Shown here: in pieces, positions 3,318 to 43,271 of the stretch
Layout: each line of letters opens with the position of its first letter
Numbering within the stretch: the first letter of the stretch is position 1
DNA from: a virus
IMG/VR virus record: IMGVR_UViG_3300020465_000021
Coordinates: 1-56,386 of that record
Length of the DNA: 56,386 nt
Direction: 5' to 3' (one strand)
Notes under the pieces: generated by a model
Seen by the model: the letters and a program-made list of their open reading frames with translations, nothing else
Databases searched by the model: none
Told to the model about the DNA's origin: nothing
Program-made: the position numbers and the translations under genes

Positions 3318-3472
3318 TTACTTACTTACCAAGTAGATGGAATAAAGGAATTGATCTTATACACATTGATCTAAGAACCCAAGAACAAAAATGGGATTCA
3401 ATCAATAGACAGATCAAATTTAACTTACATGCTAATTATTGTATTGATACATTATGGTATCTTCAACAGTAA
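3314..3472 (+). CDS. Small hypothetical protein with GTG start
   Basis: A 52-residue frame, starting at GTG 3314 (VITYLPSRWNKGIDLIHIDL), which overlaps the cupin stop as GTGA, and ending with TAA at 3470-3472. There is no ATG option, so it rests on the coupling overlap and uninterrupted coding-like composition. It ends 10 bases into the convergent GIY-YIG gene on the other strand. No family recognised. A C-terminal WYLQQ and a helical middle are all that can be said. Confidence 0.45.
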   Translation: MITYLPSRWNKGIDLIHIDLRTQEQKWDSINRQIKFNLHANYCIDTLWYLQQ

Positions 3473-4494
3473 TACCATTTGTACCCATAAGCATGACACC
3501 ACTTAGGTGAATGAATGTTCTTATGTATGTTTGAAACAGCAGTTCTATCACCTTCTCCCTTAACATAATAGGAGGCACTACTTAAACTATCAAAGTATAA
3601 TACCTTAGTACCTAATCCCTTTTCTACTGCCTTCACTTTTTTCTTTCTTTCTTCAGCACTCTTTTTACCTAAAGCACTATAATATTCAAATCCTCTATTC
3701 TTATCAGTAACTTTAATATGGTTACGTGATACTTTCCTAGTACCGTCAAAGCGAAATAACCACCATCTCTTACAATGTACTTTTGCAGTGCGTGGTGAAT
3801 CTAATGATGTTTTAACATTAGCATTGGTATATCTATTACCCTCTATCTCTTCAGCACAATCCGCCTGACATTCCCATTCCTTATATTCGCCACTATCAAT
3901 GTGATAACCATATATTCTACATCTTATTCTAACCTGTTTATCTTTCCATTCTTTTAATTGTTCTCCTTTCCATGTCCATCTATAACCATGTGATTGAAAT
4001 ACCTTATTATTACAACATGCTCTAATACCATTTCTTTCACTCCTTTTAGGATTACGACCTAATGTTTCTAATGCAGCAACACCCATAGTATCATAATCAC
4101 ATATGTAATTACCCTCTAATGTATAACAACTAACAGCACGACTCTTAGGATGATTACTCCATTGCTTTGGATCTTTCTTTACACCCTCACCACCGAATGT
4201 AGCATTATATCCTTTATAGTAAGTATCGTATTCAGTTATGTAATGTGATTCTCTTTCATCTACTATATCATCCTTACATTCTTCTAATACTCTAAACTTA
4301 AAGTTCTCTACTCCATACTTACGCAATGCACGTATAATAGGCATATTACGAACACGAGAGTATGATACTGTATTCTCTTTATGCTTAGAGTGGTAAATAT
4401 GCTCTTTCCATCTATCATAAGGATTATCTTTACTTGTCTTTCCGATGTAATGTTTTGAATTGATTTTGTTTGTAATTGAGTAGATGTATGCCAT
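3463..4494 (-). CDS. GIY-YIG homing endonuclease
   Basis: A 343-residue protein. The start at 4494 (MAYIYSITNKINSKHYIGKT) places the GIY-YIG pair as IYSI...YIGKT at the very N-terminus, as usual. DRWKEHI and a catalytic-type acidic region (ECKDDIVDERESHYI, with the Glu common to the family) follow at about residues 85-100, and NATFGGEG at 113-120. The rest contains at least two modules resembling the NUMOD1/intron-endonuclease DNA-binding type (GIRACCNNKVFQSHGYRW near 190 and a similar ending AYGYKWYYC). Upstream in-frame codons are hydrophobic and unrelated and were excluded. It is the only long minus-strand gene here, as expected of a mobile free-standing endonuclease. Confidence 0.88.
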   Translation of the reverse strand: MAYIYSITNKINSKHYIGKTSKDNPYDRWKEHIYHSKHKENTVSYSRVRNMPIIRALRKYGVENFKFRVLEECKDDIVDERESHYITEYDTYYKGYNATFGGEGVKKDPKQWSNHPKSRAVSCYTLEGNYICDYDTMGVAALETLGRNPKRSERNGIRACCNNKVFQSHGYRWTWKGEQLKEWKDKQVRIRCRIYGYHIDSGEYKEWECQADCAEEIEGNRYTNANVKTSLDSPRTAKVHCKRWWLFRFDGTRKVSRNHIKVTDKNRGFEYYSALGKKSAEERKKKVKAVEKGLGTKVLYFDSLSSASYYVKGEGDRTAVSNIHKNIHSPKWCHAYGYKWYYC

Positions 4495-4689
4495 AAAGTA
4501 GGGGAAAGGGGATAGAATTAAATATAAGTGTGTATTATGTATAAAGTTTAGCGTAAAGATTGTTACGTTTCTTAAAAGGGTAGTATCCTTGAGTATCTTT
4601 TTAAACTCTTCTGATACTTGTGAGTTTAGCGAGCGTAGCATGAACCGAGCGAATTGTCAAGTATCAGGATCGCTCAGAAATCTCAGGGG

Positions 4690-4718
4690 TTGCGGTTTTC
4701 GTATTTTCGTGGTATAAT
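4690..4718 (+). promoter_or_regulatory. Sigma70-like promoter facing the palindromic repeats
   Basis: TTGCGG (4690-4695) and a perfect TATAAT (4713-4718) are separated by exactly 17 bases. The predicted start near 4725 is 13 bases before the first ATCTCGACTAGAT repeat, and no gene starts until 5072. The transcript would therefore have a noncoding leader of more than 300 bases or be a noncoding RNA. Confidence 0.6.
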
Positions 4719-4737
4719 ATTCTTATATTCGTGGGTG

Positions 4738-4889
4738 ATCTCGACTAGATTTGTGCGTTGTTAGTTTCGTACATAATCTCGACTAGATTACACCTGCAAT
4801 ATACACATATCATATATCATATATTATCTCGACTAGATACACCTGCAAGTATCATACATCATATCGCATACATATAATCTCGACGAGAT
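4738..4889. repeat. Four spaced palindromic repeats, ATCTCGACTAGAT
   Basis: Identical copies lie at 4738-4750, 4776-4788 and 4826-4838. A variant, ATCTCGACGAGAT, at 4877-4889 is a complete palindrome around the central A. The arms are ATCT/AGAT. Copies 2 and 3 are also followed by ACACCTGCAA, and a degenerate fifth piece (CAACTAGATTTCTCTGCAA) lies at 4913-4931. Spacings are 38, 50 and 51 bases. The symmetry suits a dimeric protein operator; hairpins in RNA are the alternative. Confidence 0.75.
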
Positions 4890-4993
4890 ATGCGAGCATA
4901 CGTATACACATGCAACTAGATTTCTCTGCAAATATATACATTTCGTAACATACATCATTATACATACATATATACTACTGTACATCATGTCAT

Positions 4994-5015
4994 GTGACAC
5001 TATGCGTAGCGTCAC
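4994..5015. repeat. Imperfect hairpin
   Basis: GTGAC at 4994 and GTCAC near 5015 form the outer stem and CTA/TAG the inner stem around TGCG, with one A-C mismatch. There is no T-run after it, so it is not a terminator. It is just upstream of the -35 box at 5019 and could mark an operator or the end of the upstream RNA. Confidence 0.45.
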
Positions 5016-5018
5016 ACG

Positions 5019-5047
5019 TTGCATATTACGCACATTCGTGTTATAAT
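5019..5047 (+). promoter_or_regulatory. Sigma70-like promoter for the gene at 5072
   Basis: TTGCAT (5019-5024) and TATAAT (5042-5047) are separated by 17 bases. The ATG at 5072 is 24 bases downstream of the -10 box, leaving a short leader without a clear Shine-Dalgarno. Confidence 0.65.
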
Positions 5048-5071
5048 CAACCTAGTTAATACTTCTCAATT

Positions 5072-5215
5072 ATGTATGATTACGATGCCGAATTCGTATG
5101 GGAATATGATTACTCATGTCATGATTACCTTGAAGAAAGTAATACATTCGATGAAGATTACGCAAGAGATGATAACAACAATTATCAAGAACTTGCATAC
5201 CGTCATTTTGCATAA
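5072..5215 (+). CDS. 47-residue acidic Tyr/Asp-rich protein
   Basis: The ORF starts MYDYDAEFVWEYDYSCHDYL and continues with acidic and Asn-rich residues to QELAYRHFA. About a third of its residues are Asp, Glu or Tyr, so it is strongly negative. It has its own promoter (5019-5047) and is followed by a hairpin terminator (5257-5290), so it is a complete small transcription unit. Small acidic phage proteins often mimic DNA or bind basic host proteins. That is only a possibility; no homologue is recognised. Confidence 0.6.
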   Translation: MYDYDAEFVWEYDYSCHDYLEESNTFDEDYARDDNNNYQELAYRHFA

Positions 5216-5256
5216 CCCATTATAATTCGTTTTTAAAAGTATAAACAATTCGTGTG

Positions 5257-5290
5257 CCAGTTGCGTGAGTGGATCGCAGCTGGAATTTTT
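5257..5290 (+). terminator. Probable intrinsic terminator
   Basis: CCAGTTGCG (5257-5265) pairs with CGCAGCTGG (5275-5283) with one T-G wobble and a 9-base loop, then AATTTTT. It ends the unit containing the gene at 5072. GTGCCAGTTG recurs about 55 bases later, in the leader of the next gene. Confidence 0.6.
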
Positions 5291-5384
5291 GGTGTCTGGG
5301 TGCCAGTTGATAAAGTGTCACATATTTTTCCCATTCGTGCCTAAAATCGATTATATTACAAATGTCCCACGGATTTCACCCCTT

Positions 5385-5621
5385 ATGAGATTACAATCTT
5401 CTGGAAATGGTTCAATGATTGTTGACTTCTACCCGACTAAATCTTGGATTGATAGTCACATTTTTGAAGATAAGTTTCTTAAGGTTCTAACATTTAGTGG
5501 CGAAACTATGGTAAAGAAAGTTGTTAGTCACGCTGAGATGATTGAAGAGATTAGTTCTTACTTTCTCCACAATTACACTGCTATTGCTAACAACACCCTT
5601 CCACAATTCATTCGTTCTTAA
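5385..5621 (+). CDS. Hypothetical protein
   Basis: The ATG at 5385 gives 78 residues (MRLQSSGNGSMIVDFYPTKS...). A longer frame back to a GTG at 5265 is rejected because it would begin inside the terminator stem. The protein has an N-terminal beta-like region and a C-terminal helix (VSHAEMIEEISSYFLHNYTA). No family is recognised. Its TAA is followed immediately by the next ATG (TAAATG), so the two are probably co-translated. Confidence 0.6.
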   Translation: MRLQSSGNGSMIVDFYPTKSWIDSHIFEDKFLKVLTFSGETMVKKVVSHAEMIEEISSYFLHNYTAIANNTLPQFIRS

Positions 5622-5789
5622 ATGTCACAAACTGTTCGTTCCCTAAGTATCACTGAAGCAGAGGAAACTGTCCTCGTTGAAATGATACAATACTTCAACG
5701 ATTTGGGTTGGATTAATGACACAAACGTTGATGAATATGACTCCCTATGTGAAAAGATATGCGAACCTGCATTTTGGGAGTATTCGTGA
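5622..5789 (+). CDS. Small acidic hypothetical protein
   Basis: A 55-residue ORF (MSQTVRSLSITEAEETVLVE, then MIQYFNDLGWINDTNVDEYD). It begins on the base after the upstream stop. A helical N-terminal half and an acidic middle precede CEKICEPAFWEYS. From memory, short proteins of this shape with LT.AE...L...I occur in marine phages, but I cannot name one. It is followed by the first of the series of GC-rich terminators at 5811. Confidence 0.6.
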   Translation: MSQTVRSLSITEAEETVLVEMIQYFNDLGWINDTNVDEYDSLCEKICEPAFWEYS

Positions 5790-5810
5790 CAATCCACAAA
5801 CTGTCACATA

Positions 5811-5833
5811 AGAACCCCACGGGGTTCTTTTTT
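5811..5833 (+). terminator. Intrinsic terminator (cassette copy 1)
   Basis: AGAACCCC-AC-GGGGTTCT followed by a T-run. Five bases later comes TATATT and a leader TAAGAAAGTACCAAACAGGA ahead of the gene at 5869. The hairpin is nearly identical to the one at 7266-7289. Confidence 0.85.
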
Positions 5834-5868
5834 CGTGTATATTAAGAAAGTACCAAACAGGATTTATC

Positions 5869-6123
5869 ATGAACGGTTGGAAAAACTACGAAACCTGGAA
5901 CGTTTCTCTTTGGATACAAAATGACGAAACCCTTTACAGACTAGCACTTGCCACGGCAGGATTTCAAACTTTCGTTAATGAAATGCGTGAGTGGGGATGT
6001 GATGAAACACAAGACGGGGTAAAATGGGTTGATGCCGATTACTCCGAAGTTCAAAGCATGTTCAATGAGATGAAAGCTACCACCGATTTCCACCACTGGA
6101 AGTCTGCACTGGTCAGTTTCTAA
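5869..6123 (+). CDS. DUF7249-like conserved protein
   Basis: An 84-residue protein with the highly recognisable opening NGWKNYETWNVSLWIQNDET, a signature (NYETWNV.LW..N) shared by small proteins of many phages and cyanobacteria, now filed as a domain of unknown function (I believe DUF7249). The rest is helical, with W-rich positions. No enzymatic motif is visible. It sits alone between two terminators, with its own leader and a CAGGA ribosome binding site. The family label is from memory; the function is unknown. Confidence 0.75.
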   Translation: MNGWKNYETWNVSLWIQNDETLYRLALATAGFQTFVNEMREWGCDETQDGVKWVDADYSEVQSMFNEMKATTDFHHWKSALVSF

Positions 6124-6134
6124 ACTGTCACACT

Positions 6135-6158
6135 AAACCCCTTAAGGGGGGTTTTTTT
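6135..6158 (+). terminator. Intrinsic terminator (cassette copy 2)
   Basis: AAACCCC-TTAA-GGGG(GG)TTT followed by Ts. Then comes TATACT at 6162-6167 and the leader TAAAGAGTACCAAAGGATTT. It follows the gene at 5869 by 11 bases and precedes the next ATG at 6193. Confidence 0.85.
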
Positions 6159-6192
6159 ATGTATACTTAAAGAGTACCAAAGGATTTTTTAC

Positions 6193-6372
6193 ATGAGCAC
6201 ACTTGCAAATGAGTCACTCTATGAAACATGCTTTGACGAATCATTTGACGAGTACATGCGTATCAGTGGTTTATCAAGTGCTGATTTGTACTGTTGGATT
6301 AAGGTAAATCCGTTCGTCCTTGATAGAATAGAGGAGATGGCATACAAAAAGTTCCAAGACATGTGCCAGTAA
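6193..6372 (+). CDS. Small acidic hypothetical protein
   Basis: A 59-residue ORF (MSTLANESLYETCFDESFDE, then YMRISGLSSADLYCWIKVNP). Three Cys residues lack zinc spacing. The N-terminal half (LYE.CF.ESFDE....GLS) resembles the small acidic early proteins typical of marine T4-like phages. It is monocistronic, between the terminators at 6135 and 6387. The TATACT-type leader and AGGATTTTTTAC precede it. Function unknown. Confidence 0.6.
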   Translation: MSTLANESLYETCFDESFDEYMRISGLSSADLYCWIKVNPFVLDRIEEMAYKKFQDMCQ

Positions 6373-6386
6373 TCAAAGTGACCACC

Positions 6387-6411
6387 AAATCCCCCACAGT
6401 GGGGATTTTTT
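6387..6411 (+). terminator. Intrinsic terminator (cassette copy 3)
   Basis: AAATCCCC-CACAGT-GGGGATTT followed by a T-run. TATTAT (6414-6419) and TAAAGAGTCAAAACATTTTT lead into the ATG at 6445. Confidence 0.85.
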
Positions 6412-6444
6412 GCTATTATTAAAGAGTCAAAACATTTTTCTATT

Positions 6445-6570
6445 ATGTTCGTTGATCCACGTTACGAAGACGAAGCAATTGCCGCACTCATGGAAGAGGC
6501 ATTGTCAGAGTCAGAGCAGGAGAAATTTGACGTTGAGGCATACTTAGCAGGAGACCAGGATTATGCTTGA
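6445..6570 (+). CDS. 41-residue acidic hypothetical protein
   Basis: The ORF is MFVDPRYEDEAIAALMEEAL followed by SESEQEKFDVEAYLAGDQDYA. About one third of its residues are acidic; it is probably a single amphipathic helix with a flexible tail. It overlaps the next gene by 8 bases. It has its own TATTAT-type leader. Too short for a family assignment. Accepted because of its cassette position and coupling to the next gene. Confidence 0.5.
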   Translation: MFVDPRYEDEAIAALMEEALSESEQEKFDVEAYLAGDQDYA

Positions 6571-6697
6571 TTATTCGTCATCTATGTATGCTGAGATTGA
6601 AAAATACGCAGCAGACCTGGAGATTACATGCGATTACTACCTATTAGAATTCGCTGATCTTGAAACCCCTGACCCTGATTCTGACCCTAACTGGTAA
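6563..6697 (+). CDS. 44-residue acidic hypothetical protein
   Basis: The ORF is MLDYSSSMYAEIEKYAADLE, then ITCDYYLLEF and an acidic Pro-rich tail (ADLETPDPDSDPNW). It starts inside the end of the preceding gene, so it is likely translated by re-initiation. The first part should be helical and the tail disordered. No recognised homologue and no functional claim. Confidence 0.5.
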   Translation: MLDYSSSMYAEIEKYAADLEITCDYYLLEFADLETPDPDSDPNW

Positions 6698-6702
6698 CTC
6701 CC

Positions 6703-6837
6703 ATGAACACAACGATTCGTTATTCATTCCCAAATGATTGTAAATTTCGTTACATGTCATTCGCTACCTATGAACAGGCATTGAATTGTATAAACCTGTT
6801 CAGAAAAATCGAAGTCAAAGCGGAATTGAAAATTTGA
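6703..6837 (+). CDS. 44-residue basic hypothetical protein
   Basis: The ORF is MNTTIRYSFPNDCKFRYMSF, then ATYEQALNCINLFRKIEVKA and ELKI. The beta-alpha-beta pattern with a central helix (TYEQALNCINLFRKI) is like a half ferredoxin fold or a small phage protein of the type that alters host enzymes. It follows the previous stop by 5 bases and is the last of a three-gene cassette that ends with the terminator at 6866. Function unknown. Confidence 0.5.
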   Translation: MNTTIRYSFPNDCKFRYMSFATYEQALNCINLFRKIEVKAELKI

Positions 6838-6865
6838 AACAAAACTTATTGTTTCAGTTTGTTAC

Positions 6866-6889
6866 AAAACCCCTATAAGGGGTTTTTTT
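6866..6889 (+). terminator. Intrinsic terminator (cassette copy 4)
   Basis: AAAACCCC-TATAA-GGGGTTTT followed by Ts. TACAAT and AAGGGAGTACAAACG follow, leading to the gene at 6929. This closes the cassette 6445-6837. Confidence 0.85.
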
Positions 6890-6928
6890 ATTGGTACAAT
6901 AAGGGAGTACAAACGAAATTCGTTTTTT

Positions 6929-7252
6929 ATGCCTGTTAAGTCACCTGCTGCCACTCCTACTAAAACACGTAAGACACGCACCCGTAAGACTTCAACTAAA
7001 AAATCAGTAGCACCCCGTGTTACTGTTACCACTTTCAAAGGTGGTAAAGTCGTTGCTAAGAAGACCACGCTCAAACGTCCTTCAACTGCACGTCTGATCT
7101 CACCTCAAAAATATCTTAAGGATATTTCAACACGGTGGGCAATCCACAATTTTGAAATCCAAGAACTTTTAAAGGATTTTTCAAAGGGTTTTGAATTCGT
7201 CAAACCCTACCATGCACAGGCAGTGAAAACAGTCAAAGCATGGACAGTCTAA
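6929..7252 (+). CDS. Basic protein with Lys/Arg/Thr-rich N-terminal tail
   Basis: A 107-residue protein. Residues 1-30 are a disordered, highly basic tail (TPTKTRKTRTRKTSTKKS) like histone H1 or bacterial histone-like tails. Residues 31-60 continue basic (TTFKGGKVVAKKTTLKRPST), and the C-terminal 45 residues form a helical, more neutral domain (LISPQKYLKDISTRWAIHNF...). A nucleic-acid binding role fits the charge. It is a single-gene cassette between the terminators at 6866 and 7266. The charge and tail are visible; nucleoid binding is inference. Confidence 0.65.
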   Translation: MPVKSPAATPTKTRKTRTRKTSTKKSVAPRVTVTTFKGGKVVAKKTTLKRPSTARLISPQKYLKDISTRWAIHNFEIQELLKDFSKGFEFVKPYHAQAVKTVKAWTV

Positions 7253-7265
7253 GAACTGGCACACA

Positions 7266-7289
7266 AGAACCCCACGGGGTTCTTTTTTT
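7266..7289 (+). terminator. Intrinsic terminator (cassette copy 5)
   Basis: AGAACCCC-AC-GGGGTTCT plus a T-run, the same as the copy at 5811. TATACT (7293-7298) and TAAAGAGTACTAAAGGATTT follow, almost the same as at 6162. Confidence 0.87.
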
Positions 7290-7323
7290 ATGTATACTTA
7301 AAGAGTACTAAAGGATTTCTACC

Positions 7324-7671
7324 ATGCGTAAGATTGAAAAGCAAATGAATTTCGCTATTTCAAACAAAGGCAACTGGTCCAATTCAAACACTACGGTAGA
7401 ATATAACGATTCTACCAACTGCTCAACCGTCTTTCTACACGGTAATCGCATCGCAACTTATGACCATGCGTTATGTGCTTTGAAGATTTCGTCCTGTGGG
7501 TGGCAGTCAAACACTACAAAATCACGTTTGAACGCTATTCTCCAGGAAGTCAAATACGGTTGCCACGTATTCCAAAAACAGTTTGAGTGGTTCGTTTCGT
7601 ACCGTGATGACGTTAAAGATTTTTGGGATGGTATGATACTCGTTGATGCTGATCATTTAGAGATCGCATAG
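7324..7671 (+). CDS. Conserved phage hypothetical protein
   Basis: A 115-residue protein beginning MRKIEKQMNFAISNKGNWSN, with the following TVEYNDSTNCSTVFLHGNRI and ALKISSCGWQSNTTKSRLNA segments. This looks like a small family I remember from marine and other phages, in which MRKIE..M..AI and a strand-rich TxVFLHGN.IA pattern recur, with no known function. Cys residues at about 35, 50, 59 and 80 are not in a zinc arrangement. It is monocistronic, with the standard TATACT leader and terminators on each side. Confidence 0.7.
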   Translation: MRKIEKQMNFAISNKGNWSNSNTTVEYNDSTNCSTVFLHGNRIATYDHALCALKISSCGWQSNTTKSRLNAILQEVKYGCHVFQKQFEWFVSYRDDVKDFWDGMILVDADHLEIA

Positions 7672-7695
7672 ACCAGTTAAGAAACTGCCACACTA

Positions 7696-7716
7696 AACCC
7701 CCGAAAGGGGGTTCTT
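7696..7716 (+). terminator. Intrinsic terminator (cassette copy 6)
   Basis: AACCCCC-GAAA-GGGGGTT with a stable GNRA tetraloop. The following CTTTCGTTT is a weaker T-tract than in the other copies. TATACT at 7722-7727 comes right after it. Confidence 0.7.
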
Positions 7717-7721
7717 TCGTT

Positions 7722-7727
7722 TATACT
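7722..7727 (+). promoter_or_regulatory. TATACT -10-like box, possible leaderless start
   Basis: TATACT ends 6 bases before the ATG at 7734, so a start about 7 bases downstream would fall on the ATG itself. No Shine-Dalgarno precedes the gene. No good -35 is visible. The sister copies of this element are 25-30 bases from their ATG. Confidence 0.4.
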
Positions 7728-7733
7728 AATAGT

Positions 7734-8633
7734 ATGAAAAACATTCACATTGAGCACCCCGAAGACTGCATCCTCACTGGAAACCTTTCCATTTTGGATG
7801 CGTTTTTTATGCCGTTTATTCTTTCGTTAAAGATTGACGGAGCACCCGCTATTGTGTGGGGTCGTAATCCTGCCACGGGAAATTTCTTCGTTGGGACTAA
7901 ATCAGTGTTTAATAAAAGATTAATTAAGATAAACGAATCACATGACGATATTGATAAGAACCACAGTGGAATCGTTGCCACTATTTTACATTTTTGTTTT
8001 CGTTATTTGCCACATACAAATGATATTATTCAGGGTGATTTCATCGGGTTCGGTGATAGTTTCACTCGTGAATTTACCCCTAATACAATAACATATAAGT
8101 TCGTTAATTCTCCGTCGGAAAATATCATTATAGCACCTCACACATTGTACCATGCTGAGAGTGATTTAAGGGATGCAATTTCTTCGCCATTGTTAACAAC
8201 TTTAGAGGGTAATTCGTTCTGTCGTTTTATACAACCTAAAGCGTATATTCGTGAGGGAGTTAATAAGATTAAAGGGGTCGTTAATTTCGCTAAGTCGTTA
8301 TCACAAACCGTTTCTTTCGTAAGTGATAAAGAAGCAACCGTAATTAAGCGTGAAGTTAACAAGTATATACGTGAAGGGTTAGAGTTATCTCCAGAGCGTA
8401 TTTTGGACGGAAAATATACAAAACTGTTAGAACTCTATATGTTAACAATGCGTATCAAATTAGAGGTTCTTCGTTTATGTCGTAATGATGCGGATTTCGT
8501 TTCGTTAATTGATAACAACCGTATAGACGGGGAAGGTTATATTTTACATTCGCAATATGGCGTTTTTAAGTTAATAGATCGTTCCGTATTTTCGCACTTT
8601 AATTTTACACTTAACTGCGTTAATCGTAGTTAA
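7734..8633 (+). CDS. Ligase-like nucleotidyltransferase-fold protein (DUF6267-like)
   Basis: A 299-residue protein with the order of motifs seen in covalent nucleotidyltransferases (ATP-dependent DNA/RNA ligases): SLKIDGAPAIVWG at residues 31-43 with KxDG (Lys33-Asp35-Gly36) as motif I, GDFIGFGD near 101, DGEGYIL near 265 (motif IV type, Glu267) and GVFKLIDR near 277 (motif V type, Lys279). TGNFFVGTKSVFNK (residues 48-61) is typical of a phage family filed, I believe, as DUF6267. There is no OB domain after motif V. It could be a ligase or an inactive relative; activity is inference. Confidence 0.75.
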   Translation: MKNIHIEHPEDCILTGNLSILDAFFMPFILSLKIDGAPAIVWGRNPATGNFFVGTKSVFNKRLIKINESHDDIDKNHSGIVATILHFCFRYLPHTNDIIQGDFIGFGDSFTREFTPNTITYKFVNSPSENIIIAPHTLYHAESDLRDAISSPLLTTLEGNSFCRFIQPKAYIREGVNKIKGVVNFAKSLSQTVSFVSDKEATVIKREVNKYIREGLELSPERILDGKYTKLLELYMLTMRIKLEVLRLCRNDADFVSLIDNNRIDGEGYILHSQYGVFKLIDRSVFSHFNFTLNCVNRS

Positions 8634-8657
8634 CATATAGGGAATAAGTTCGCCCTT

Positions 8658-8663
8658 TATAAT
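8658..8663 (+). promoter_or_regulatory. TATAAT box upstream of the gene at 8698
   Basis: A perfect TATAAT lies 35 bases before the ATG at 8698. The best -35 candidate, TTAACA at 8630-8635, is too far (22 bases), so the box is supported only by its -10 match and position. Confidence 0.4.
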
Positions 8664-8697
8664 AGACACTTATTAAACCCCAATTACATTGATTAAA

Positions 8698-8802
8698 ATG
8701 TCAACTAATTTTGCTTATTTCCTTCTTGAAAATGCTAACAATGGCAATGAAATCCTTTCTGTCCTGGATGATATTGTAGAAGTCGAATTTACCGCACTTT
8801 AA
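8698..8802 (+). CDS. 34-residue small phage protein
   Basis: The ORF is MSTNFAYFLLENANNGNEIL followed by SVLDDIVEVEFTAL. It begins 35 bases after a TATAAT box and ends directly before the AT-rich array region. The pattern FLLENANNG.EIL.VLD.I resembles very small conserved proteins of marine T4-like phages, from memory. Too short to assign; kept because of its composition and isolated position with a terminator downstream (8837-8863). Confidence 0.5.
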   Translation: MSTNFAYFLLENANNGNEILSVLDDIVEVEFTAL

Positions 8803-8832
8803 TTGTTAACAACTGTGTGAAAACTGAATAAC

Positions 8833-8886
8833 ATATAAGGGGTCTAATATGACCCCTTTTTTTGTTAACATATAGACCCCTTATAT
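8833..8886. repeat. 14-base perfect inverted repeat with a competing hairpin
   Basis: ATATAAGGGGTCTA (8833-8846) is the exact complement of TAGACCCCTTATAT (8873-8886). The GGGGTC of the first arm can instead pair with GACCCC at 8851-8856 to form the terminator. A second inverted repeat, GTTAACATATA (8864-8874) with TATATGTTAAC (8896-8906), overlaps the right arm. Confidence 0.7.
8837..8863 (+). terminator. Intrinsic terminator
   Basis: AAGGGGTC-TAATAT-GACCCCTT followed by a T-run (57-63 of the 8800s). It closes the transcription unit of the small gene at 8698 and lies at the left edge of the tandem array. Confidence 0.8.
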
Positions 8887-9404
8887 ACACCCCCTTATAT
8901 GTTAACAACTATATGCCTAATATGCATGATATTATTATAAACAATTGAGCATATATTATATAATATTATATGTTAACAATCACCAGGCATATATGCACAC
9001 ATATAATATAAACAATCACCAGGCATATTATATAATATAATATGTTAACAATGGCCATGCATATATGCCCACATATATGTGCACATATAATATGATATTA
9101 TATAATATTAAATATAAACAATTAAATCACATATTACCAGGCATATGTACACACATATAATATGCAATATGCTCATATATGATATAAACAATTAAATGAT
9201 AATATGCATATTTTAAATATTAATAATGGCCAGGTAATAATTAAACATTGTTAACATCGCAGTTGTTTAATATGTTTTATATTATTATTAAAAATCAACT
9301 ACTACCCTAACCTACAAAGTGTTACGGAAGAGAGATATAAATTCCTTTCAATACAAAATTTTTTTTAAAAAATTTTTAGTACTATATACCCACAGAAGAA
9401 GAAA

Positions 9405-9596
9405 ATGGAAATCCTCACCATGCAAAAAAAATTCGACCATGAAAATACGACTGTAGAGATCGATCCAATTTCTGGGGAATATTATACAGTTATACCTGAA
9501 TGGGTTATTCATGATATGAATTGGTACGAGGGATCCGAAATAAATTTTGACATTGAATCCGATGAAGTTATTATCAGAGACGCAGAAGATGAATAG
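9405..9596 (+). CDS. SpoVT/AbrB-like swapped-hairpin small protein
   Basis: A 63-residue protein; the second Met (9420) is an alternative start. The segment YYTVIPEWVIHDMNWYEGSE then INFDIESDEVIIRDAE follows the pattern of AbrB/MazE DNA-binding domains: strand, a Pro at the start of a helix (IPEWVIHDMNW), EGSEI turn, strand, acidic turn, strand. Such domains form dimers that bind DNA as transcription regulators or antitoxins. It is the first gene after the tandem array, so autoregulation through the array is possible but unproven. It overlaps the next gene by 8 bases. Confidence 0.6.
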   Translation: MEILTMQKKFDHENTTVEIDPISGEYYTVIPEWVIHDMNWYEGSEINFDIESDEVIIRDAEDE

Positions 9597-9753
9597 ACCC
9601 ACCTATCACATATACTTGGAGGATAGGTGCTTATTTAAAGATTTGAATGAAACAGAGTTTGATATTATATGGGGAAGACTATATCATTCTTACTGGGACG
9701 GACTAACATATACCAGAGTAACCGAACCCGAAATGGTAGATGCATCTTATTGA
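9589..9753 (+). CDS. Conserved small phage hypothetical protein
   Basis: A 54-residue protein: MNRPTYHIYLEDRCLFKDLN, then ETEFDIIWGRLYHSYWDGLT. The ATG at 9589 is favoured by its short (8-base) overlap with the upstream gene. The pattern YHIYL.DRCLFKDL.E.EF...W..L is one I recall from T4-like cyanophages, with no known function. Its TGA stop is part of the TTGACA of the promoter at 9750. Confidence 0.7.
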   Translation: MNRPTYHIYLEDRCLFKDLNETEFDIIWGRLYHSYWDGLTYTRVTEPEMVDASY

Positions 9754-9778
9754 CATCTGCTATATAAACTGATATAAT
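9750..9778 (+). promoter_or_regulatory. Consensus sigma70 promoter
   Basis: TTGACA (9750-9755) and TATAAT (9773-9778) are separated by exactly 17 bases. The -35 box contains the stop codon of the upstream gene, as at 1869. It would drive the glycosyltransferase at 9801. Confidence 0.8.
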
Positions 9779-9800
9779 TGACGTGTAATTACAAAACGTT

Positions 9801-10562
9801 ATGGCTAAAGGATTTACGGTAAAAGCAAAAACGCCCGTTAAAGCACAATCCAAAGCACCAGAATGGGACTTTGATAAAGCAAGGGAAATGATAAAGGGTA
9901 AAAGCATTGTATTTTGCTTACCTGGAAGAAATGTTTCATATACCTTTTTAAAGAACTTTGTACAACTGTGTTTTGACATAGTACAGAATGGAGGAAAGAT
10001 ACAGATATCTCAAGACTATTCATCTATGGTTAATTTTGCAAGATGCAAATGCTTAGGTGCAAATGTACTTCGTGGTCCTGATCAGAAACCTTGGGATGGT
10101 AAGTTACAGTATGACTGGCAACTATGGATTGATAGTGATATTGTTTTCAATACTGAGAACTTCTATAAGTTAATTCTTATGGATCAAGATATTGCATCTG
10201 GTTGGTACTGTACAGAAGATGGAGCAACTTCATCTGTTGCACATTGGATGGATGAGGATGACTTCCGTAAGAATGGTGGAGTTATGAATCATGAAACATT
10301 AGAAACAATGTCGAAGCGTAAGAAACCATTTACAGTTGATTATGCAGGATTCGGTTGGTTGCTAATCAAGCATGGTGTATGGGAACATGAAGAGATTAAG
10401 TATCCTTGGTTTGCTCCTAAGATGCAAGTCTTTGAATCTGGTGAAGTACAGGATATGTGTGGAGAAGATGTTTCATTCTGTTTAGATGCAATTGCTGCAG
10501 GATTTGAAATATGGTGTGACCCACGTATTCGGGTAGGACATGAGAAAACACGAATTATATAA
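9801..10562 (+). CDS. GT-A fold glycosyltransferase
   Basis: A 253-residue protein. A basic tail (residues 1-18) leads to SIVFCLPGRNVSYTFLKNFV (nucleotide-sugar binding strand and loop), FARCKCLGANVLRG, and WIDSDIVF at about residues 110-117, which holds the DxD motif that coordinates the metal and the sugar-diphosphate. CGEDVSFCLDAIAAGFEIWC near 219-238, followed by DPRIRVGHEK, is the usual acceptor-side end of this family. T4-like cyanophages encode such enzymes near the baseplate region. It may glycosylate virion or host surface parts; the target is unknown. It sits right behind a consensus promoter, and the next gene overlaps its end. Confidence 0.88.
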   Translation: MAKGFTVKAKTPVKAQSKAPEWDFDKAREMIKGKSIVFCLPGRNVSYTFLKNFVQLCFDIVQNGGKIQISQDYSSMVNFARCKCLGANVLRGPDQKPWDGKLQYDWQLWIDSDIVFNTENFYKLILMDQDIASGWYCTEDGATSSVAHWMDEDDFRKNGGVMNHETLETMSKRKKPFTVDYAGFGWLLIKHGVWEHEEIKYPWFAPKMQVFESGEVQDMCGEDVSFCLDAIAAGFEIWCDPRIRVGHEKTRII

Positions 10563-10716
10563 TATTACATTGAAGGGAGGGAAAGTATTATTCTCTGATC
10601 TTACTCAGATGGAATACTTCGAGCGTATGGAGGATCTGGCAATTGAATTCTATCAGACAGGTACTCCACATCCCGACGACATTGTTACTGAAACTTATCT
10701 AGAAAATGGCAACTAA
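10540..10716 (+). CDS. Conserved small phage hypothetical protein
   Basis: A 58-residue protein beginning MRKHELYNITLKGGKVLFSD, then LTQMEYFERMEDLAIEFYQT. It overlaps the glycosyltransferase end by 23 bases in another frame. The start has no better alternative. The pattern LYNITLK.GK..FSDLT..EYF..MEDLA.EFYQTG.P is familiar from cyanophages, where it is annotated only as conserved hypothetical. GGAGG appears in its 5' part, not before it. It overlaps the following membrane protein by 11 bases. Confidence 0.68.
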   Translation: MRKHELYNITLKGGKVLFSDLTQMEYFERMEDLAIEFYQTGTPHPDDIVTETYLENGN

Positions 10717-10921
10717 ATCAAACATAACCGTTGAAAAGGTTATATCCTATATTAAGGACAAATGGCAGGTATTCGGAGTAAGTGCTCTGATTATCTTTAT
10801 ATTACAGATACTCTCTACAAAACTTCTTGTCTCGGTATTGTTAGGTCTTGGTGTAACTGCACTATTACCTTCAGATACTGTAAAGAAGGTTACTAAGAAA
10901 GTAAAAGGAGGTGCTGAGTAA
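10706..10921 (+). CDS. Small membrane protein
   Basis: A 71-residue protein with hydrophobic stretches at about residues 22-55 (VFGVSALIIFILQILSTKLL followed by VSVLLGLGVTALL), which fit two short membrane spans or one long hairpin, then a basic tail (VKKVTKKVKGGAE). It would sit in the inner membrane. It follows the glycosyltransferase pair in the same operon and shares its last base with the start of the next gene. The function is unknown; a holin is conceivable from size and topology, but nothing further supports that. Confidence 0.65.
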   Translation: MATKSNITVEKVISYIKDKWQVFGVSALIIFILQILSTKLLVSVLLGLGVTALLPSDTVKKVTKKVKGGAE

Positions 10922-11064
10922 TGGCAAAGTCAGCAGGAATCAGTGGTGGTGATTTTATTCAATCGCCCCCGAAGAAGTCTCGTCAAGGTCGGGGCAAGCA
11001 TACAAAATATACAGCAACGTCCCGTAACTCGCCTCGTAAAAAATATAGAGGTCAAGGAAGATAA
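10921..11064 (+). CDS. Small basic protein conserved in cyanophages
   Basis: A 47-residue, strongly basic, Gly/Ser-rich protein: MAKSAGISGGDFIQSPPKKS then RQGRGKHTKYTATSRNSPRK and KYRGQGR. It should be disordered and bind nucleic acid or acidic proteins. I recall similar MAKSAG.SGG.FIQ.PPKK.RQG sequences located upstream of the baseplate genes in cyanophages. Its TAA is overlapped by the first late-promoter octamer (11060-11067). Confidence 0.7.
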   Translation: MAKSAGISGGDFIQSPPKKSRQGRGKHTKYTATSRNSPRKKYRGQGR

Positions 11065-11067
11065 ATA
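11060..11067 (+). promoter_or_regulatory. Late promoter octamer (GATAAATA)
   Basis: GATAAATA is 17 bases before the ATG at 11085, matching the T4 late consensus TATAAATA except at its first base. It overlaps the TAA of the upstream gene. It marks the start of the structural block. Confidence 0.6.
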
Positions 11068-11084
11068 GTTGAAAAACTATTACT

Positions 11085-11564
11085 ATGGCTGCCGTTTATA
11101 GACCGTTTCCTGAAAAACTAGGAGGACAATCCGCTACTTCTTTTGTAGGAAACCAAGGAGATTTATTTTACGACCCAACTACTGCCACCCTTAGAGTTTC
11201 CGATGGAAGCACTTCGGGTGGTATTGTTGTAGGTGCAAGATATAAAGGAACTGGTGCCTTTACAAACTTAGGATCATCACCTGCAGGTACTTGGACTGGT
11301 ACTGGCATTACTGTAACGTATGGAGCAGTGTCTGGATATGGTACATATCAATTCACCTTTACAATGGATCATGACTATGGTGATATTGCTAGTTACCTTG
11401 TATTAGTACAGTGTCATTATCATTCTGATGGTGCTGGTAAAGGAGATCCATTGGTGTTTAACCTTGAGAAAGTTAATGGTACTACCTTTGTTGGTACAGC
11501 ATCAAATCCAACTGCTGGCACAGCAGATGATGCTAAGTTTGACGTATTCGTATTTGATGCTTGA
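11085..11564 (+). CDS. Virion structural protein, fibre-like
   Basis: A 159-residue protein with its own late promoter. Residues 20-48 (FVGNQGDLFYDPTTATLRVS then DGSTSGGIVV) match the GxLFYD..T..LRVSDG.T.GG strand motif repeatedly found in cyanophage fibre and baseplate proteins. The rest is a beta-rich sandwich. It contains one Cys and a QCHYHSDG loop, which could bind metal. It lies just upstream of gene 25, where cyanophages often encode a tail structural protein. Assigned as a structural protein of unknown position. Confidence 0.7.
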   Translation: MAAVYRPFPEKLGGQSATSFVGNQGDLFYDPTTATLRVSDGSTSGGIVVGARYKGTGAFTNLGSSPAGTWTGTGITVTYGAVSGYGTYQFTFTMDHDYGDIASYLVLVQCHYHSDGAGKGDPLVFNLEKVNGTTFVGTASNPTAGTADDAKFDVFVFDA

Positions 11565-11583
11565 TATAGTTTGAGAGTAAAGA

Positions 11584-11591
11584 TATAAATA
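11584..11591 (+). promoter_or_regulatory. Late promoter octamer (TATAAATA)
   Basis: An exact TATAAATA lies 21 bases upstream of the gene 25 ATG, in the 48-base gap after the fibre-like gene. It is the T4-type late consensus, expected to need the phage late sigma factor and clamp. Confidence 0.8.
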
Positions 11592-11612
11592 AATTAAGAA
11601 AACTATTGACCT

Positions 11613-12014
11613 ATGGCAATACAAAGGGTTTCTAGGGCATTTAAAGACATTAGTTTGTCTTTTGAACCACACCCTGTAACAAAAGACTTACCCATACTCA
11701 AGAATGAGAGGGCAATTATTAAATCAGTAAAGAATCTAGTGCAAACTATTCCTACTGAGAGGTTCTTTAACTCATTGTTGGGTTCTGAGGTACGTTCAAG
11801 TCTATTTGGATTTGTTGATTTTGGTACTGCAGAGATTATTAAGGATCAAATTGAAACAACTATTGATAACTTTGAACCTAGAGTTGAGAATGTAATATGT
11901 GAAGTTGATCCAAACCCAGATGCCAATACATTTGAAGTTACTATAAGATTTGATATCATTGGACAAGAGTTTCCTGCACAAGAGTTTTCATTTTTACTAG
12001 AAGCAACACGTTAA
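11613..12014 (+). CDS. 25: Baseplate wedge subunit gp25
   Basis: A 133-residue protein with the typical gp25/Gpw-like features: SRAFKDISLSFEPHPVTKDL near the start, NERAIIKSVKNLVQTIPTER at residues 28-47 and the following SLFGFVDFGTA. T4 gp25 is about 132 residues. In T4, gp25 joins gp6 and gp53 in the wedge and contacts the first sheath ring. The preceding TATAAATA and the one-base gap to gene 6 fit the usual late operon. Confidence 0.95.
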   Translation: MAIQRVSRAFKDISLSFEPHPVTKDLPILKNERAIIKSVKNLVQTIPTERFFNSLLGSEVRSSLFGFVDFGTAEIIKDQIETTIDNFEPRVENVICEVDPNPDANTFEVTIRFDIIGQEFPAQEFSFLLEATR

Positions 12015-16900: not shown

Positions 16901-19900
16901 TATAATACAGGTGGGACATCAATTGAGGGATTGACTGTTGAGACAGGTATAACATCAACTTCACAGCATTATCAAGTATTAAAAATAGATGATAATTCCT
17001 TTAGACTTGCAGATTCTGGAATTGGTGGAACAATAACATCAAATCATACTAGAAAAAATAACGTAAATTTAGTTTCTATTGGTAGTAGTCATCATAATTT
17101 TAAATATCCTAATATTGAGGTATTAATTACCACTCAGGGCGTTGCTACTGGTGTAATTACAGCAACTCCTGTTGTGCGAGGTAAGATTACTGATGCATAC
17201 TTATATGAAGAAGGAACAGGATATGGATCAACAATAATTAATTTCCATAAGAAACCTATTATTACCATTAAATCTGGTAAAGGTGCTGAATTTAAACCAA
17301 TTATTGTTGATGGTAAAGTTAGTCAAGTTTTAGTTTCTGTATCTGGTAGTGGTTATACATCTCCTCCAGATTTAACTTTGGTTGGTATTGGATCTGGAAT
17401 TGGTGCTAAATTTAGACCTGTTGTGCAAAATGGTGAAGTATCACATGTTATTGTGCTCAATGAAGGTAGAAATTATGATGTTAATACATCTATAGCATCA
17501 ACTGCAATTGGTTTAAATGGTTTTATAGAACCTTATGTTAGAGGATTGTCTTGGAATAACAAATCAAGATTTGGTGATGAAATATTAGTCGAGAATGTTG
17601 ATGGGTTGGAATATGGTTGGGTAGGATATTCTACTGCATTAGGACAAAAAGAATATGGTGATAATTTGAGAAATCATTCACCAATTGTTGGATGGGCATA
17701 TGATGGCAATCCAATTTATGGTCCTGTTGGTTATTCTGATCCTGAAGATGATAGTAGTTCTAGAATAATGTTAAGTGGTTATAGTCTTATTCCATCTAAT
17801 GTTACAGATAGACCATCATTTAGTAATGGTTCGTTTGTTGAAGATTATGAATTTATGAATGCTGGTGATCTCGACAAACATAATGGTAGATATTGTAAAA
17901 CACCAGAATTTCCTAATGGAACATATGCATATTTTGCAACAGTAGATTTTACAACTTTAGTATCTACATTCCCATATTTTATAGGAGATACTTATAGATC
18001 TGTTGGTATTGGACAAACAGTAGATCAAAGTTTCAATTTTAATAATTCTGATTTAGTTAGAAATACATTCCCATATAAAGTTAATGATATTTTTGCTAAT
18101 AATGATTTTATTGTAGAACCTTATGAAATTACACAACAAAGAGCTGTTGTTGATTCTATAGTTAAAGGATCTATTGAAAATATTATTGTTAATGAATCTG
18201 GTGATGGTTATGTTGTTGGTGATACTGCTAGATTTGATAATACTGGAACTAATGGTGGTGGTTTAAGTGCATTTGTTTCTAAATTAAAAGGAAAATCAAT
18301 TGTTGATATAAACACTGAAGTTGAAGAATATCAGACAACAACTTTAGTTTGGGATAATTCAAATCAAGTTTCAGTACATATAGATCCAGTACATACTCTG
18401 TTAGATAAAGATAATGTTGTTATTTCAGGAGTTTCAACATATATTGCAGGATTAACTCAATCTCATGTTATAGGTGTTACTTCAGAAAGGACTTTCTTAC
18501 TTGCTCCCGTACCTTCAAATTCTACAGTTGGATATGTAACAGACATTTATGTTTCTTCTATTCCTGATAGTGTTTCTGTTGGATCTACACTCAGTATTAA
18601 ATCAGAAAGGGTTTCAGTTCTTGATACATTTGAGAAAAATAAAGTTATAAGAATTGTCAGAGGGGAATCTGTTGGTGCTGCATATACTGCTTCAACTGAA
18701 TTAAATACAGTTCCATCATCATTTACTATCTCATTAGAAACACCATCATTTGAATCTAAATTAAACGATGTTAGATATTTCAATCCACTTCATTCTGTAG
18801 GTATTGGAACAACTACTGGTGGTACTGTAACTAAGAATTACAGAATTGGTGAAGCAAACATTCCTGTATCAATTGAAAATCAAAGCATTTATATTCCAAA
18901 TCATCCATTTAAACAGAATCAAAAATTAACATTCAAAAAATATAATAGTTCTACTCAAAATATTGGTATTAGTACAGAACCAGATAGTAGTATTTTATCA
19001 CTACCAGAATTGGGTGTTACACAAACAGTTTATGTAATTAATAAATCAAAAGACTTTATTGGTTTAACAACTCAGATTGGATTAACTACATCTACAAATG
19101 GATTGTATTTCCGTTCATTCACTGCTAATGCTGATAATAGGGATTATAGATATTCACTAACTTCAAATTATATACAAGAAACCGCAAAAGCTGAAAAAAT
19201 TACTGCTACTGTTGCAGTATCTACATCACATGGAATGCTTAATAATGATGTTATTGATTTATCAGTAAGATCAAATCAATCTGTTGGTGTTGGTGAATCT
19301 ACTGCAGTAAGAGTAAAATATCATTCAAGTTCTGATAAATTAATTATTAATCCAACAACTTTTGCACACACAGCATTAAATGCATCAGCAAATGAATTAA
19401 CATTGACTGATCATGGTTTTAACACTGGTGATAAAGTATTTTACAATTCTACAACATCACAACCATTTGTTGGTTTAGGAACTGGTGGATATTATGTTTA
19501 TAGAGTGGATGATAATAAATTCCAATTATCACACACTAGATATGATACTGAACAAAATCCACCTACAATTATAACTCTCAATACTCCTAGTGCTGGAAGT
19601 ACACATCAAATTTCTAAGATTAATCCACAGATTAATGTAATTAATAATAATAATTTAGTATTTGACGTTTCAGATACCTCATTATCTGGATATAATTTTA
19701 AAATTTATTATGACAAAGAATTTAATAATGAATTAGTTTCTGTTGGTGGTACTGTTACTGATTTTGTAATATCAGATTTTGGTGGTGCTGTTGGTTGTGG
19801 TACTACATCAACATTAACTTTAAATTATACTAGTCAATTACCAACAAAATTATATTATAATTTAGAAAGAACTGGTTATATAAGCACTTCTGACACAAAT

Positions 19901-43022: not shown

Positions 43023-43271
43023 ATGATCATTAAACCACTATCTTTGGCATTTGATATTGCAAGTGCTGCAAATTCTACAATAAATGATGCTACATTAATT
43101 AGAGTTGTTAATGTAAGCAATGCTGCAGTAAAAGTTACTGTTGCTGGATCTGTTGCAGTAGAGACTTATATTGCTGCTGGAGAAGCAGTTGTTATAGAAA
43201 AAGAAATGGGAGCAGCTACAACTGCATCTGGATCTACTGTTTGGGCAACTAAAATAGCATACGCAAATTAA
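43023..43271 (+). CDS. Small structural-type hypothetical protein
   Basis: An 82-residue Ala/Val/Thr-rich protein: MIIKPLSLAFDIASAANSTI, then ATLIRVVNVSNAAVKVTVAG and AGEAVVIEKEMGAATTASGS. The ATG at 43023 is taken rather than a TTG 9 bases upstream. The pattern of hydrophobic strands (TLIRVVNVSNAAVKVTV) indicates an all-beta domain. I recall short beta-rich proteins in this position, next to the large terminase gene, in cyanophages. Likely a minor virion protein; function unknown. Confidence 0.7.
   Translation: MIIKPLSLAFDIASAANSTINDATLIRVVNVSNAAVKVTVAGSVAVETYIAAGEAVVIEKEMGAATTASGSTVWATKIAYAN

Follow-up and report, generated by a model that had tools for sequence, protein, structure and literature searches.

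The locus and its surroundings

The question raised by this locus is what a row of short, evenly spaced repeats is doing in a noncoding gap of a viral genome. The window, that is, the whole stretch of DNA analysed here, is a 56,386-base IMG/VR virus record; its genes are of the T4-like cyanophage type, and the virus, one of marine cyanobacteria, is a T4-like cyanophage of the Kyanoviridae. A first-pass annotation had read the repeats as iterons next to an AT-rich unwinding zone, as in a replication origin or a large operator, and this interpretation as a whole is partly supported by the analysis. Even repeats in AT-rich DNA beside a conserved stretch, together with the DnaA sites that relatives carry at the same place, indicate that the locus may be where DNA copying starts.

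Upstream of the array lie, on the plus strand, a DUF6267/phrog_455 gene (7734-8633) and a 34-aa ORF (MSTNFAYFLLENANNGNEILSVLDDIVEVEFTAL, 8698-8802) with a weak match to phrog_27308 (E 0.0095). An intrinsic-terminator-like hairpin (8837-8866, plus strand), formed by a stem at 8837-8858 and a T-rich tail, then closes the upstream transcription unit. The core array (8895-9230) and a conserved noncoding element (9290-9366) follow on the same strand. Directly downstream of the element is a gene for a 63-aa phrog_661 protein (9405-9596, plus strand), and gene 25, encoding the baseplate wedge, forms a fixed landmark further downstream (11613-12014, plus strand).

The 63-aa protein is a possible AbrB/MazE-like DNA-binding protein, as weak sequence matches suggest. 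PF04014 (MazE_antitoxin) matched 16 of the 31 aligned phrog_661 members, with a best E of 9.7e-5, and did not match the window's own copy; solved AbrB chains compared with the protein gave E values of only 0.34-0.49. Its AF2 model was too weak to be used as evidence (pLDDT 68.9) and found no PDB fold match at E<=0.001.

A regular lattice of short sites

The array consists of heads of the form TAT[AG]T[AT]AACAAT, repeated every 35-36 bases and separated by variable AT-rich spacers. Lattice heads start at 8901, 8937, 8972, 9008, 9044, 9114 and 9184, with a degenerate head at 9219, while the slots between 9044 and 9114 and between 9114 and 9184 hold no recognisable head. These seven starts had all been named in the first-pass annotation, which had listed three more that are not lattice units. 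The starts at 8828 and 8864 flank the terminator hairpin on either side, and that at 9250 belongs to a reverse-strand GTTAAC flank, in which a reverse GTTAACAA (9248-9255, minus strand) lies within GTTAACATCGCAGTT; this flank is partly common to L071, a relative that lacks the array. The two head types had also been described as alternating, which holds strictly from 8901 to 9044 and not beyond, and the two merge into the single motif given above. At 24.5% G+C the description of the rest as nearly pure A+T was too strong. Stop codons do occur in every frame, as had been claimed, with 7-15 in each of the six frames of 8828-9256, and a coding repeat was rejected on this ground.

The periodicity exceeds that of shuffled sequence, in agreement with the earlier claim. 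Exact heads (ATAAACAA or GTTAACAA) number seven in 8880-9215, against a mean of 0.08 and a maximum of 2 in 2000 shuffles, and none of 2000 random placements of an equal number of heads reached the observed regularity of the lattice. Autocorrelation of 8828-9256 peaked at lags of 72 (z 4.7), 70 (z 4.5) and 36 bases (z 3.4). The maximum z was 4.65 in this interval, where the largest of 1000 dinucleotide shuffles gave 4.38, and 4.42 in 8880-9215, where the shuffle maximum was 4.19; in the wider interval 8700-9400 it was 4.22, above the 99% level of 3.93 and below the shuffle maximum of 5.17. Tandem Repeats Finder (TRF) reported period 72 at 8953-9122 (score 205) and period 36 at 8963-9077 (score 121).

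The array is also the least stable duplex of the window when measured over 50, 200, 300 or 400 bases; over 100 bases the least stable stretch is at 19629, away from the array. A site of 9-11 bases thus recurs on a 35-36-base lattice inside the long stretch of lowest stability in the window.

The 5' flank of the element (9268-9295, plus strand) belongs to the sequence family of the array. It agrees with an array unit at 23 of 28 bases, a level reached in none of 2000 shuffles, and lies 350 bases from the unit at 8937. In view of this likeness, the array may be an outgrowth of the AT-rich edge of the element, or may have converged on it. Across the whole window, 11 of the 12 matches to GTTAACAA fall within 8190-9255, and three of them start inside the DUF6267 coding sequence.

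The array in related phages

The head pattern TATAAACAATN{20,50}TGTTAACAAT was run on the viral collection and returned 13 stretches. Twelve were judged to be chance matches, as they had two or three heads each and lacked a nearby element core; the one real match, L347, carries the array together with the same neighbouring element. By blastn L347 is 90.7% identical to the window over 4110 columns and 91.6% over 1686. Counted from the element core, it has eight heads, at -332, -296, -261, -226, -191, -156, -121 and -86, and those of the window are at -404, -368, -333, -297, -261, -191 and -121, so that the two arrays agree in their phase to the element to within about three bases. The first-pass annotation had made its reading depend on conservation of the unit phase in relatives, and the phase is kept in L347, the sole array-bearing relative found.

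Between the two phages the number of units and the spacers differ, units having been gained, lost or changed. Where the two lattices coincide, the head bases agree at 66 of 78 and the spacer bases at 68 of 132. Over the 16 units of both phages the mean information is 1.57 bits in heads, 0.59 in spacers and 0.44 in random sequence, a figure that is supportive and not independent because the units share ancestry. The proposal of iterons by an AT-rich unwinding zone thus gains partial support from heads that sit on a lattice, are conserved over their spacers and lie in the least stable stretch.

The array is known from these two related phages only. Two others, L267 (neighbour protein 91% identical) and L071, share the upstream gene and the element with the window but not the array. 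The exact array word AACAATCACCAGGCATAT had no match in viral contigs, and of the 107 element loci that have 400 bases or more of upstream sequence, the window alone had three or more heads within 1 kb. A BLAST comparison of the region with phages gave seven records, all matching the element or the 34-aa ORF only and none the array.

A conserved element beside the array

The element adjoins the array on its downstream side and comprises an AAAAA run (9290-9294), a 13-base core (CCCTAACCTACAA, 9305-9317), a -10-like box (ATATAAATT, 9335-9343) and a T-tract (9359-9366). At least 120 IMG/VR stretches match the element pattern, and the matches listed comprise 73 nonredundant loci; at least one of these, L098, is a chance match in a coding region and was left in the counts. 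The near-invariance of the core is by construction, because the core belonged to the search pattern, and the logo from the pair scan described below likewise admitted cores with at most two mismatches and required the bases upstream to be A-rich. Each of the 59 phage records has the element at a single place, and an exact 19-mer of it had no match in 84,980 bacterial and archaeal genomes. Among the 73 listed loci examined, all 54 with a gene-25 match have gene 25 downstream of the element on the same strand, at 1.3-7.7 kb. Sequence comparison thus shows the element to be phage-specific and widespread in the Kyanoviridae.

DnaA boxes at the same place in relatives

The array of the window occupies the place where relatives carry DnaA boxes. 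Excerpts of PMC4674748 give the word TTTTCCACA as the DnaA box of most cyanobacteria. Within 1 kb upstream of the element TTTTCCACA/TGTGGAAAA was the most enriched 9-mer, with 47 copies against 2.8 expected, spread over 13 of the 73 listed loci; an extended TTTTCCACA was also the top 10-mer, and the word came third among 8-mers, behind CGTTCGTG-type words. None of its 1259 anagrams exceeded 8 copies. Two or more copies were found at 12 of the 73 listed loci, no anagram reaching that number at more than 2, and the same number of loci have two or more boxes within 1.3 kb of the element, with one further locus having one. Most of the 73 listed loci have neither DnaA boxes nor an array.

The boxes are often convergent, and a pair separated by 14-16 bases recurs. 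A reverse scan, blind to the element, was made of the viral collection with this convergent pair, TTTTCCACA-N14..16-TGTGGAAAA. It returned at least 120 stretches, of which 117 of the 120 listed were used, giving 95 nonredundant loci. An exact core lay within 2 kb of the pair at 24 of these 95 (200 anagrams: mean 0.02, maximum 1), a core with at most one mismatch at 37 (0.28, maximum 3) and one with at most two mismatches at 46 (4.27, maximum 18); the remaining 49 listed pair loci had no core with at most two mismatches within 2 kb. Distances from pair to core at the listed loci were 443-1584 bases.

In many whole records the few DnaA boxes cluster near the element locus. The 177-kb isolate Syn9 has four, two of them 24 bases apart and about 0.9 kb before the element. 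A 951-base stretch of S-CAM22 holding pair and element matches, at least in part, 233 phage records, all named Synechococcus, Prochlorococcus or cyanophage. P-SSM2, S-SRM01 and G034 have the element and no DnaA box cluster near it. We found no description of DnaA boxes in cyanophages in the titles and abstract beginnings listed by searches of the open-licence literature.

The window itself has no exact TTTTCCACA in its 56,386 bases, and one TTATCCACA lies at 32091, far from the array. A degenerate convergent pair at 8788 was dismissed as chance, with four mismatches and the wrong spacing; the window holds seven entries that are as good or better spaced. GC skew was also set aside as evidence: in Syn9, G002 and the first 200 kb of G001 it reaches no extremum at the element. 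The earlier proposal of an origin gains independent support from the clustered DnaA boxes of relatives at the same place, and is weakened by the lack of an exact box in the window and of a skew extremum.

Some arrangements of boxes are dense or unusually placed. Direct and inverted boxes crowd together in L124 (860-945), in L019 (around 5594) and in L123 (-258 to -192), where they form near-perfect palindromes such as CCTGTGGAAAACTAGTTTTCCACAGG in L019. In L206 (about 1812-1823; S-CAM22 43033-43041) a box sits in the tail of the element, just before an AT/T-rich stretch.

Further modules occupy the same place. The bridging locus L342 carries, in order, three DnaA-box iterons spaced 21-23 bases apart, a 33-base array containing GTTAACAC, a 69-base array and the element. 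In L016 an ORF similar to the 34-aa ORF of the window is placed between DnaA boxes and the element. Other arrays are found at this place in L019, L124 and L048, the first two of which also have boxes. Arrays with a period of at least 18 lie within 700 bases upstream at 4 of the 73 listed loci when the window is counted, compared with 3 of 596 bins elsewhere (Fisher p 0.0036); leaving the window out gives 3 of 72 (p 0.019). Lineages appear to exchange the binding-site module and to keep the element.

The word CGTTCGTG is strongly enriched within 400 bases of the element (22 of the 73 listed loci), is often followed by C/G-rich tracts and may be another binding module. It had seemed to exclude DnaA boxes, none of 12 loci sharing the two, a rule contradicted by L342, which carries both.

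Comparison with known origins

By analogy, the nearest match in kind is the set of iterons at T4 oriE. Excerpts of PMC3016281 describe these iterons as 12-nt repeats at even intervals, conserved in close relatives and without a defined role. The window, too, has short direct repeats at even spacing in the noncoding DNA of a T4-like phage; a syntenic array is present in its close relative L347 and absent in L267 and L071. Unlike the 12-nt repeats of oriE, the heads of the window measure 9-11 nt and are set on a 35-36-base lattice, and the array adjoins an element for which no counterpart was found in the descriptions consulted.

A likeness to T4 oriF and oriG lies in easily melted AT-rich DNA beside a promoter-like element. 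In those origins, however, a MotA middle promoter has its AT-rich part downstream, whereas in the window the long AT-rich part is upstream, the promoter-like box at 9335-9343 having a T-tract downstream. Excerpts of the review PMC2984593 state that cyanomyoviruses lack motA and that a single theta origin is predicted for Syn9. In position the locus is not homologous to the uvsY origin of T4, because the Syn9 map has uvsY at 120.8 kb, far from gene 25 at 58.3 kb.

Direct repeats together with an AT-rich stretch also recall iteron plasmid origins of the R6K gamma type. Unlike these, the window has no DnaA box, and no Rep-like initiator gene was matched among the ORFs scanned near the array. Iterons of the R6K gamma type are spaced about 20-22 bases apart, compared with 35-36 in the window array. 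The clustered TTTTCCACA boxes of relatives resemble those of cyanobacterial oriC, from which the locus differs in that the window lacks TTTTCCACA, that the element 19-mer is absent from the bacterial and archaeal genomes searched and that no dnaA or dnaN neighbour was seen.

A candidate origin and its alternatives

We put at about one half the probability that the array is the iteron-like initiator and unwinding module of a candidate kyanovirus replication origin. A sequence-specific protein, other than DnaA in the window phage, would bind the row of heads, wrap or bend the DNA and help to melt the AT-rich stretch. The T4-like phage replisome would then be loaded at the melted stretch, perhaps primed by a transcript started inside the element. 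The clustered DnaA boxes beside the same element in relatives lend independent support to an origin at this locus. Against it weigh the restriction of the array to two related phages, the lack of DnaA boxes at most element loci and the replisome of the Kyanoviridae, a T4-like one with no known need for DnaA.

More tentatively, the Kyanoviridae might share one modular, initiator-dependent origin just upstream of the gene-25 cluster, made up of a constant phage-specific element and an exchangeable binding module. Many marine and freshwater lineages would have host DnaA boxes as this module, and the lineage of the window a 35-base lattice for a different initiator. If so, such phages would borrow or replace the initiation signal of the host, unlike T4, and the locus would be a naturally occurring case of an origin with a binding module that differs from lineage to lineage. 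The conserved locus with host-type DnaA boxes is present in growable isolates (Syn9, S-CAM22 and others), so that the replication start of abundant T4-like cyanophages is directly testable.

The main rival is transcription control, in which the element would be the promoter of the gene-25/gene-6 late cluster, the heads activator or repressor sites or AT-rich promoter-enhancing DNA, and the DnaA boxes of relatives regulators of genes. It is a strong rival because ATATAAATT is one base from the T4-like late promoter box of cyanomyoviruses, TATAAATA/NATAAATA, as given in excerpts of PMC2984593, and a late-promoter-like box in the element fits transcription equally well. The constant position of the element upstream of gene 25 on the same strand, a promoter-like spacing from core to AT-box and the terminator upstream of the array all agree with it. 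However, the consensus of distant members reads ATATtA and does not preserve the late box, the sequence upstream of the element shows no enrichment of TATAAATA (0.059/kb, compared with 0.086/kb at a distance) and sigma-70-like matches in 4000-12000 are not above the shuffled number (34 against 35.0). Element and gene 25 are, moreover, often separated by several kilobases of small genes, and clustered DnaA boxes with AT-rich arrays are the signature of an origin rather than of a late promoter. We regard this reading as unlikely on balance, though deserving of serious consideration.

It is improbable, in our estimate, that the array is a neutral AT-rich tandem repeat, one that arose through slippage or unequal crossing-over where a noncoding gap permitted it and that has no binding role. 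Its restriction to two related phages and absence from L267 and L071, the fast change of unit number and spacers, and the occurrence of other arrays in the window, such as that at 4773-4890, would all be expected of such a repeat. Against this, the heads stay while the spacers drift, the 35-base phase to the element is kept despite the loss or change of units, and the information content is concentrated in the heads, with the reservation, given above, that the units are not an independent sample.

The reading that we hold to be very improbable is a site for host takeover or another DNA transaction, such as titration of DnaA in relatives, packaging, partition or recombination, with the array serving as decoy or binding platform. 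In its favour, sequestration of DnaA would likewise account for clusters of host-type boxes away from any obvious initiator gene, and the element has a single place in each phage record. Titration, however, leaves the AT-rich lattice unexplained in a phage without DnaA boxes, and no packaging or partition gene was found at the locus among the ORFs examined. A structured RNA was rejected, Rfam finding only a tRNA in the window and the fold of 8890-9260 having a z of -1.87, with 5 of 100 shuffles as stable; insertion by a homing endonuclease was likewise not supported, the GIY-YIG gene lying at 3463-4641 on the minus strand.

Other repeats and signals in the window

A second tandem array, with a period of 49 and CTCGACTAGAT/TCTCGACGAGAT words, is found at 4773-4890, about 130 bases from the GIY-YIG gene, and is also present in L347. 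In S-SRM01 an HNH endonuclease gene is adjoined by a period-33 array of similar words (L004:3391-3497). Positions 4000-12000 of the window have an excess of terminators (19 against 3.5), and terminator-like hairpins of the same sequence, AAGAACCCCACGGGGTTCTT, recur between small genes at 5810-5829 and 7265-7284. Upstream of a phrog_1574 gene (9801), positions 9750-9778 hold a perfect sigma-70-type TTGACA-17-TATAAT with TG before the second box.
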